This document shows positions 25,606 through 61,495 of a stretch of DNA of 64,000 nt, piece by piece. The translations under genes were made by a program, and so were the position numbers. Source of the stretch: Planctomycetaceae bacterium. GTDB taxonomy: Bacteria; Planctomycetota; Planctomycetia; Planctomycetales; Planctomycetaceae. The notes under the pieces are model-generated. The model worked only from the letters and a program-made list of their open reading frames with translations. It made no database searches and was not told the DNA's origin. The DNA lies in assembly GCA_024742875.1 (NCBI GenBank), contig JANSXP010000004.1, positions 159,284 to 223,283 of the forward strand. The letters are read 5' to 3'. Numbering within the stretch: the stretch's first letter is position 1; each line of letters begins with the position of its first letter.

Positions 25606-26373
25606 ATGAGAGGGATTACATTGTCTGTGGCTCTGGTCGTTATGACCATGACAAGCAGCGCAAATGCAGGCCTGTTCGGTCTGTTCGGCGGCCACAAAGG
25701 CTGCGGAAGCTGCGGTACAGAGCCTAGCTGCTGTGCTCCAGCTGGCTGTGGATCTGCCTGTGAAGCAACCTGCTGTGCTCCAGCCGGCTGCGGAAACGCC
25801 TGTGAAGCAACCTGCTGTGCTCCAGCTGGCTGTGGATCTGCCTGTGAAGCAACCTGCTGTGCTCCAGCTGGCTGCGGTTCTGCCTGTGAAGCAACCTGCT
25901 GTGCTCCAGCTGGCTGTGGATCTGCCTGCGACGCAACCTGCTGTGCTCCAGCTGGCTGTGGCAACGCCTGCGAAGCATCTTGCTGTGCTCCAGCAACATG
26001 TGGCGACAGCTGCTGTGGTGCTGGCGACGGCTGTGGCGAAGGCTGCTGTGCTCCTCGCAAGTGCCGTTTCAAGATGCCTAAGCTGCGTCTGCCTAAGTTC
26101 AAGATGCCTAAGCTGCGTCTGCGTAAGTGCCGCAAGTCAAACGGCTGCGGTGGTTGCGGTGTAGCCGCTAGCTGCTGTGCTCCAGCTGGCTGCGGTTCTG
26201 CCTGCGACGCCACCTGCTGTGCTCCAGCTGGTTGTGGCAACGCCTGCGAAGCCTCTTGCTGTGCTCCAGCTGGTTGCGGTTCTGCCTGCGACGCCAGCTG
26301 CTGTGCTCCTGCTGGCTGCGGTAATGCCTGTGCTCCTTCTTGCTGTGCTCCTGTCTGTGGCGGTTGCAACTAG
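25606..26373 (+). CDS. Exported Cys-rich tandem-repeat protein (CCAPAGCGxACxAx repeats)
   Basis: Signal peptide MRGITLSVALVVMTMTSSANA, RBS aggag; 14-aa repeats; 58 Cys by my count out of 255 aa. Confidence 0.85.
   Translation: MRGITLSVALVVMTMTSSANAGLFGLFGGHKGCGSCGTEPSCCAPAGCGSACEATCCAPAGCGNACEATCCAPAGCGSACEATCCAPAGCGSACEATCCAPAGCGSACDATCCAPAGCGNACEASCCAPATCGDSCCGAGDGCGEGCCAPRKCRFKMPKLRLPKFKMPKLRLRKCRKSNGCGGCGVAASCCAPAGCGSACDATCCAPAGCGNACEASCCAPAGCGSACDASCCAPAGCGNACAPSCCAPVCGGCN
25733..26350 (+). repeat. 42-bp coding tandem repeats in two blocks
   Basis: Unit tgctgtgctccagctggctgtggatctgcctgtgaagcaacc repeated, interrupted by a basic linker with a duplicated FKMPKLRLxK segment. Confidence 0.9.
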
Positions 26374-26430
26374 TCAAGAAGAGGCGAGGGTGAGCTGCAA
26401 AGCCCGAGTCATGATATGAGCTGACGATGA

Positions 26431-26462
26431 GAACAGGTGGGGAGTCGTGAACCCACCTGTTC
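26431..26462 (+). terminator. Strong hairpin 3' of Cys-rich gene
   Basis: GAACAGGTGGG / CCCACCTGTTC perfect 11-bp stem, 10-nt loop; no good U-tract. Confidence 0.45.
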
Positions 26463-26554
26463 CTCGGCTTGCAAATCTCGGATCGTGCGGAACAGAGGTT
26501 TGTAAAGCGGTCATCGGCAAAGTGACACCATCGGACTTGTAGCATAAATCACCT

Positions 26555-26720
26555 TCCGCCCCGGCTGTCGAGGAACGTGAGGTATCCTCACGGGGGAACA
26601 TGCACTGGGTTATTCCGAATAACCAAGTGGTTCCACCGATGCTCAGCTCTTAGGGTGGAACTGATTGGTAAATCGAAAGCGGCGATGAGAAGGGTTTGGC
26701 CCGACTCATCGCCGCTTTTC
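26555..26720 (+). ncRNA. Candidate structured small RNA with intrinsic terminator
   Basis: Three perfect hairpins (26576-26592, 26608-26624, 26630-26661) then a 14-bp terminator stem (26676-26718) with TTTT; upstream GTGACA-N16-ATAAAT promoter-like sequence; no plausible ORF. Confidence 0.5.
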
Positions 26721-26864
26721 GTTGGTCTTTTCAAAGGGAAGAATCCGTCGGGGCGCTCGCTTCCACAAAGACATTGGTTGTCTCTGGTGTGATTTGTGCA
26801 ACAATAGCCGTCCCTCTGTCTCCCTTTCTCTGCCCCCCAAGACTCGACCTTCGGGCCTGAATCC

Positions 26865-27887
26865 ATGTTGCTGGTCATTCTCCGAGTGGCTTACCTGCTG
26901 GTCTGTGCCGGCGCCATCCTCGCCTACATCAACCCGGAAGAAGTTGATGGGACGGCCTCCTCACTGCCCCGCATTATTAACGATCACAAGTTGATCGCGT
27001 TCGTGGTGTTGTTGCTGCTCAGCCAGATCGTGACGATTGTGGACATGATGATTCGGCGCAAGCGGATCGAGGTCATCTCTGCGATCTACTTCGGGATCCT
27101 CATTGGTGTATTGCTGGCGTACCTGATGATCCAGGCGCTGACTCCCATCGTGAAGCCGCCATACGAAGGACTGGCCGTGATGCTCACGCTGCTGATCCTG
27201 CCGTATTTGTGCGTGTCGCTGCTGTTGCAGACCAAAGACGATTTTCGCTTTGTCATTCCGTACGTGGAATTTGCCCGAGATCTCAAAGGCGGGCGGCCGC
27301 TGGTGGTCGACAGCAGTTCGCTGATTGATGGACGCATCGCGGATGTGCTGGAGACTCAAATCCTGGAGTCCCTGCTGATTGTGCCCGATTTTGTTCTGGC
27401 GGAAGTCCAGGACATCGCGGACAGCAACGATAAGAACCGCCGCATCCGCGGTCGTCGCGGGCTCGAGGTTTTGGCCACCATGCAAAAGAATCCGCACGCC
27501 GACATCCGTGTGGAAGAAACCAATCGCACAGAATTTCGCTCCACAGCCGTCGATCAAAAAATCGTCGAACTGGCCAAGCAGGTTCGCGGCGGCGTCATCA
27601 CCAACGACTACAACCTGAACAAAGTGGCCAGTGTGCAGGGGATCCCAGTGGTCAATCTGAACGATGTGGCCAATGCACTGCGCCCCCGGTTCATCCCCGG
27701 CGAACGACTGCGGATCAAAATCATCAAAGAGGGTGAGAGTGCGGGGCAGGGCGTTGGCTATCTGGATGACGGCACCATGGTGGTGTGCGAGGGAGCGGCC
27801 ACCCAAATCGGTGAAGAAGTGGACAGCGTGGTCAGCAGCGTCCTGCAAAGCAGCGCGGGCCGCATGATTTTCACCAAGCCCGCTTAA
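26865..27887 (+). CDS. PIN/TRAM domain membrane protein (YacL-like)
   Basis: N-terminal TMs; PLVVDSSSLIDGRIADVLETQIL...VPDFVLAEVQDIADS; C-terminal TRAM. Confidence 0.92.
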   Translation: MLLVILRVAYLLVCAGAILAYINPEEVDGTASSLPRIINDHKLIAFVVLLLLSQIVTIVDMMIRRKRIEVISAIYFGILIGVLLAYLMIQALTPIVKPPYEGLAVMLTLLILPYLCVSLLLQTKDDFRFVIPYVEFARDLKGGRPLVVDSSSLIDGRIADVLETQILESLLIVPDFVLAEVQDIADSNDKNRRIRGRRGLEVLATMQKNPHADIRVEETNRTEFRSTAVDQKIVELAKQVRGGVITNDYNLNKVASVQGIPVVNLNDVANALRPRFIPGERLRIKIIKEGESAGQGVGYLDDGTMVVCEGAATQIGEEVDSVVSSVLQSSAGRMIFTKPA

Positions 27888-61421: not shown

Positions 61422-61495
61422 GCCCTCGTAGCTCAGCTGGATAGAGCGTCGGATTCCTAATCCGAAGGTCGTGAGTTCGAATCTCGCCGGGGGTA
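61422..61495 (+). tRNA. tRNA-Arg (anticodon CCT)
   Basis: 74 nt cloverleaf: acceptor GCCCTCG/CGGGGGT, D GCTC/GAGC, anticodon TCGGA-TTCCTAA-TCCGA, T arm GTGAG-TTCGAAT-CTCGC; no encoded CCA. Confidence 0.95.

Follow-up and report, generated by a model that had tools for sequence, protein, structure and literature searches.

The window analyzed here, a 64,000-nucleotide stretch of a Planctomycetaceae genome (assembly GCA_024742875.1, contig JANSXP010000004.1), carries on its plus strand a gene for a secreted Cys-rich repeat protein of 255 amino acids (25606-26373) and, directly behind it, a conserved RNA element of approximately 350 nt (26374-26722) that extends from the stop codon to a terminator-like hairpin. 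The gene for a PIN/TRAM protein follows at 26865-27884. The Cys-rich protein has a signal peptide, CCAPAGCG (CCAPA-type) repeats and a basic KMPKLRLPKFKMPKLRLRK core, which corresponds to the conserved (K/R)xPKLxLPK between two repeat blocks, and its conserved C-terminus ends in GCN before the stop codon in the window and in GCN or GCK across the family. No Pfam or NCBIfam family was matched by this protein. In loci of genera g47 and g53 (e.g., L079, L074, and L085), a conserved short inverted repeat around GAATGCGGCGTGTGCATTC lies in the 5' region, ahead of the Cys-rich start, and may be part of the 5' UTR or lie close to a promoter. The PIN/TRAM protein has an N-terminal hydrophobic stretch and is near-universal in the sampled relatives (95 of 98 genomes). 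The sole Rfam match in the window was a tRNA gene at 61422-61495.

A sequence-only reading of the window had proposed an independently transcribed RNA of approximately 170 nt at 26555-26720. The full alignment of homologues placed the start of the conserved element at about 26374-26383 instead of 26555, and the originally noted span proved to be its 3' half only. The structured character of that half was borne out, with a folding energy of -81.8 kcal/mol for 26550-26725 compared to -57.1 ± 4.1 kcal/mol in shuffled sequences (z -6.1; none of 200 shuffles as low), and the whole stretch 26374-26724 reached z -6.7. Covariance models were built for 26551-26724 (R1), for the core only (R2) and for the upstream half or 5' domain (R3). 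R3 matched the same loci as the core model, with E values down to 1e-51 across both covariance models, and the two halves were therefore regarded as one element of approximately 350 nt. No conserved open reading frame was found inside the element, in line with the sequence-only reading; the longest frames vary in place and sequence among the homologues.

Full-length folds from four species contained a 5' domain in which stem X and hairpins B and C are enclosed by the long-range helix H1, joining the first 30 nt past the stop codon to the 30 nt preceding the core. By sequence, the element has a conserved two-domain architecture, in which a long-range helix starting 5 to 10 nt past the stop codon closes the 5' domain, and P1 to P5 and the terminator stem make up the 3' domain. 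Three unpaired loops of the element, GTCGTGA, GTGCGG, and TTCCTGG, were highly conserved.

In the homologue alignment, the 5' domain begins with strand e, GGCGAGGGT (26383-26391; consensus GGCGUAAGG), which is able to pair with strand a of the core. Of 26 homologues, 25 have its onset 8 to 10 nt past the stop codon and one has it at 5 nt, and the nucleotides between the stop codon and strand e vary despite this constant spacing. The 5' strand of H1, GCTGCAAAG (26394-26402), pairs with its 3' strand, CTTGTAGC (26536-26543), according to folds and covariation, and the helix reads UUAGCC/GGUUAA in homologues. Folds and alignment further gave stem X, with its 5' strand at 26420-26429 and its partner at approximately 26510-26518, and hairpin C, CTTGCAAATCTC/GAGGTTTGTAAAG (26468-26507), with a conserved GTGCGG in the loop. 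Hairpin B, GAACAGGTGGG/CCCACCTGTTC (26431-26462), with the conserved loop GTCGTGA, displayed the strongest covariation; two-sided changes occurred in some sequences at all of its counted pairs (9/9), eight of which were retained in 25 to 27 of 27.

Strand a of the core, CCTTCCGCCC (26552-26561), was almost invariant in the alignment and was paired in the folds either with strand e or, as P1, with strand d, GGGTGGAAC (26653-26661), which was likewise almost invariant. The fold pairs the P2 strands GGCTG (26563-26567) and CAGCT (26644-26648). They enclose the P3 hairpin CGTGAGG-tat-CCTCACG (26576-26592), seen in the letters, the alignment and RNAalifold; strand b, GGGGAAC (26593-26599), which forms P4 with strand c in the fold and in RNAalifold; the P5 hairpin GGTTATT-ccg-AATAACC (26608-26624), variable in sequence with an equivalent hairpin usual among homologues; and strand c, GTTCCACC (26630-26637), which can pair with b or with d at 26654-26661. 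The element ends with the terminator-like hairpin T (26676-26722), a stem of 12 to 14 bp formed by AAAGCGGCGATGAG and CTCATCGCCGCTTT at 26676-26718 and supported by covariation. Its loop is TTCCTGG in most homologues, and its T-run is poor in the window and better in many homologues; a terminator scan of the window did not call it. All four hairpins listed in the sequence-only reading, namely, P3, P5, GTTCCACC/GGTGGAAC at 26630-26661, and T, were recovered letter for letter at their positions. The third of them is correct in letters and place and represents one of two mutually exclusive pairings, since GGGGAAC at 26593-26599 is a second partner of GTTCCACC.

Compensatory changes were frequent in the homologues. 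Changes on both sides were seen at 31 of the 42 pairs of the 5' domain in a model-fitted alignment that leans toward structure, and two-sided change cells numbered 145 compared to 55 in shuffles that ignore kinship; sliding the strands against each other abolished the signal. In the core and terminator, two-sided changes affected 25 of 43 pairs, again in a structure-leaning alignment. Single pairs were underpowered against a phylogenetic null of 200 alignments simulated along the tree, with none at E < 0.05 in the G-test with APC and one, in hairpin B, by the pair score (E 0.01). Because the alignments lean toward structure, the shuffles are blind to kinship and single-pair tests are underpowered, a helix-level test against the tree-simulated null was used. 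With 6-pair stretches, the scores were 5.8 for hairpin B, 3.3 for both halves of the terminator stem, and 2.2 for H1, compared to a null maximum of 2.1, so that each of these three helices exceeded the null (0/200 simulations). H1 was only just above it, and with 4-pair stretches its score was reached in 7 of 200 simulations. P3 is conserved, yet 40 of 200 simulations reach its score, which is not significant alone, and P1, P4, and the e:a pairing hardly vary and are supported by conservation only. From the core alignment, RNAalifold recovered P1, P3, and P4, and from that of the 5' domain it recovered e:a and hairpin B. The conserved helices thus carry compensatory changes, for which the sequence-only reading had proposed to look, and these mark the element as a putative structured noncoding RNA family.

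In a DNA search, five other genomes of the window's genus and one from another genus contained clear relatives, two of which have the RNA on the minus strand. R1 matched at E ≤ 0.1 in 35 of 171 Planctomycetaceae genomes. The 29 strong matches (E 7e-8 or better) were confined to the window's own genus, g1, and to g30, g47, and g53; these four genera represent Fuerstiella and relatives. The six weak matches (G195, G112, G039, G009, G117, and G045) had no adjoining Cys-rich gene, and in the two examined in full the terminator part alone aligned, as expected of generic terminators. The core-only model R2, run over 396 genomes of the class, found nothing convincing beyond the four genera, the outside matches having E values of 0.02 or worse. 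Scanning 85,462 species genomes for an exact pattern yielded 22 stretches in records titled as planctomycetes, several of them Fuerstiella and two of them metagenome bins titled Candidatus Kuenenia. Collections of viral contigs, phages, and plasmids gave no match to the RNA.

The novelty suggested by the sequence-only reading held against Rfam 15, in which no match reached the gathering score and the permissive threshold gave chance-level matches only. A literature search, its coverage leaving out most subscription journals and its result hence weak evidence, returned no description of the RNA. Judged by its sequence, the RNA is new to Rfam and conserved across four genera of Planctomycetaceae. 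Two diverged copies of the Cys-rich gene, RNA, and PIN gene were present in the assembly G147 (L098 on contig C124 and L070 on C170); the second, on a 2-kb contig, may reflect contamination or a strain mixture.

The RNA lies behind the Cys-rich gene, on the same strand, in every locus with sufficient contig and was never found there without the gene; the distance from the stop codon to the core was 163 to 183 nt in 27 of 27. Strong matches to the Cys-rich protein in a protein search fell into the same genera as the RNA with one exception, genus g6, where the gene is present in G012 and the contig stops at the gene. G001, from the window's genus, had neither a Cys-rich gene match nor an RNA match. 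The far side of the Cys-rich gene is usually occupied by a divergent 3-dehydroquinate-synthase-like gene. The gene downstream of the RNA varies, with PIN/TRAM nearby in some loci only and approximately 16 kb from the RNA in G004. By its conserved same-strand linkage to the Cys-rich gene and its spacing behind it, the element classifies as a predicted 3' UTR element.

Different sequence follows the more divergent Cys-rich genes of other genera, and homology of these tails (g83, g34, and g38) to the RNA was not detected with R2 or R3. In genus g83 (L123/G154, L124/G155, L125/G161, and L133/G159), the Cys-rich genes carry a different conserved structured tail of approximately 280 nt, in which a hairpin GTCCGGGGGAA..TTCCCCCGGAC lies inside ACGTGAGT..ACTCAC and is followed by a strong terminator. 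This tail also contains the letters AACGTGAG..GGGGGAAC, which resemble the RNA core, with no homology detected. Strong inverted repeats around ACGTGAGG were observed behind other Cys-rich genes in L131 (G044, g38) and L126 (G143, g34). The occurrence of a different structured tail on divergent relatives suggests that this type of Cys-rich protein needs a structured 3' end.

The explanation that we favor, at about even confidence and from comparative sequence evidence, is that the element constitutes a structured 3' UTR of approximately 350 nt of the Cys-rich mRNA, presumably cotranscribed and cis-acting, and switching between two folds. The Cys-rich frame and the tail would be transcribed together up to the intrinsic-terminator-like hairpin, and the tail would act in cis on its own message by protecting the 3' end and tuning the level. 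Two mutually exclusive folds would be available, one combining e:a with c:d and the other a:d with b:c. In the most specific version, strand e would be masked by a ribosome at the stop codon, which would push the RNA into the a:d fold, and the tail would thereby report how well the Cys-rich frame is translated.

The footprint of a terminating ribosome would cover the region where strand e lies, which makes a switch that responds to translation a natural hypothesis. In forced-fold calculations, the two folds were no more than 3 kcal/mol apart in 17 of 26 sequences, with e:a more often favored; near-equal energies would be expected anyway for two complementary helices of similar strength, and the case for the proposed switch comes from complementarity and energy models. 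In L071 (G004:C1:4200844-4201018), from a one-contig 8.9-Mb genome of the window's genus, e:a was 14 kcal/mol worse and P1 was weakened too. In L067 (G003), strand c reads GTTCAACC and strand b has changed along with it, so that b:c is kept and c:d is weakened, a single observation that would speak for the reality of the a:d/b:c fold. A stop-codon-coupled 3' UTR switch, in which finishing ribosomes would decide between two folds of the 350-nt tail and link translation to message fate, is an unlikely though specific form of this explanation. No convincing complementarity of the tail to the Shine-Dalgarno region of the Cys-rich gene was found by eye.

Among the alternatives, a trans-acting sRNA derived from the 3' UTR or from a bicistronic transcript, made with the Cys-rich mRNA, processed free, and acting on RNAs or binding a protein via its loops, is tenable without being probable. 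The highly conserved unpaired loops, the compact 3' domain, and the terminator hairpin would suit it, and such 3'-derived sRNAs are a known class (reviewed in PMC9438474 and PMC7821165), but the strict linkage to one gene and the fixed stop-codon spacing exceed the needs of a free sRNA, and at approximately 350 nt, with its long-range closing helix, the element is large for such an RNA. We consider it unlikely that the element is an independently transcribed noncoding RNA gene merely adjoining the Cys-rich gene, as the sequence-only reading had it. Covariation and conservation are typical of such genes, and the promoter-like letters GTGACA-N16-ATAAAT are indeed present at 26522-26549, but they lie inside the element and overlap the 3' strand of H1, and the hexamers are not conserved. 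A sigma-70 consensus scan, to which other promoter types are invisible, found 0 promoters at 26522-26549 (0.2 expected) and none in two homologues. Because the promoter letters overlap H1, lack conservation, and received no score, there is little support for an sRNA transcribed from its own promoter, and a structured 3' UTR is the likelier reading. The element also begins only 5 to 10 nt past the stop codon, and with a first paired strand at 8 to 10 nt (25/26), no promoter would fit between the gene and the element; a promoter within the end of the Cys-rich gene is possible.

That the hairpins and terminator are incidental, with no function beyond termination, is very improbable. Genes are commonly followed by inverted repeats, and the weak model matches elsewhere were generic terminators, but the loci shared by two covariance models, the helix covariation beyond the null and the near-invariant loops all run counter to it. 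Hardly credible is a divergent known RNA (6S, RNase P, SRP, or tmRNA) or a PIN/TRAM leader, which the size and terminator would fit, since nothing came near an Rfam threshold and the RNA occurs without PIN downstream; the known leader of a downstream gene raised by the sequence-only reading was likewise not found. The dissimilarity to 6S, SRP RNA, and tmRNA noted there stood for 6S RNA, with RF00013 matches located elsewhere in the genomes (in G000 only a subthreshold match, on contig C91), and for SRP RNA and tmRNA it was judged by the Rfam scan only. RNase P RNA was likewise accounted for by strong RF00010 matches elsewhere in all five genomes tested.

The favored structured 3' UTR shares with regulatory 3' UTRs of bacterial mRNAs, as described in PMC7821165 and PMC5502269, the position directly behind the frame, the same strand and a terminator-like end. 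It differs in its size of approximately 350 nt and in a covarying multidomain fold conserved over four genera. Besides the null Rfam scan, we know of no comparable 3' UTR family in Rfam. With 3'-end-derived sRNAs, as portrayed in PMC9438474, the element has in common its position, the terminator, and conserved unpaired segments as potential seeds, but it is much larger and has a long-range closing helix, and processing is not implied by the sequence. Translation-coupled attenuators and leaders also use mutually exclusive helices, and strand e is placed so that a terminating ribosome would probably cover it; unlike them, the element is behind the frame and not ahead of a regulated gene, and its downstream gene is not conserved. 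The Rhodopirellula-1 motif, a candidate structured RNA from Proteobacteria and Planctomycetes with no Rfam number given (PMC2864571), is set apart by description only, the present RNA having been found only in Planctomycetaceae.

It is uncommon for a large covarying RNA to belong to no known family, and the function of bacterial 3' UTRs is little explored. The present RNA keeps to a single gene throughout its four genera, in a phylum whose RNA biology has hardly been described. It offers a defined fold with testable competing helices and occurs in Fuerstiella, a genus with a cultured member (PMC5177795). If the stop-codon-coupled switch is true, the translation of a Cys-rich export protein, as influenced for example by cysteine supply, would be linked to the fate of its own message.
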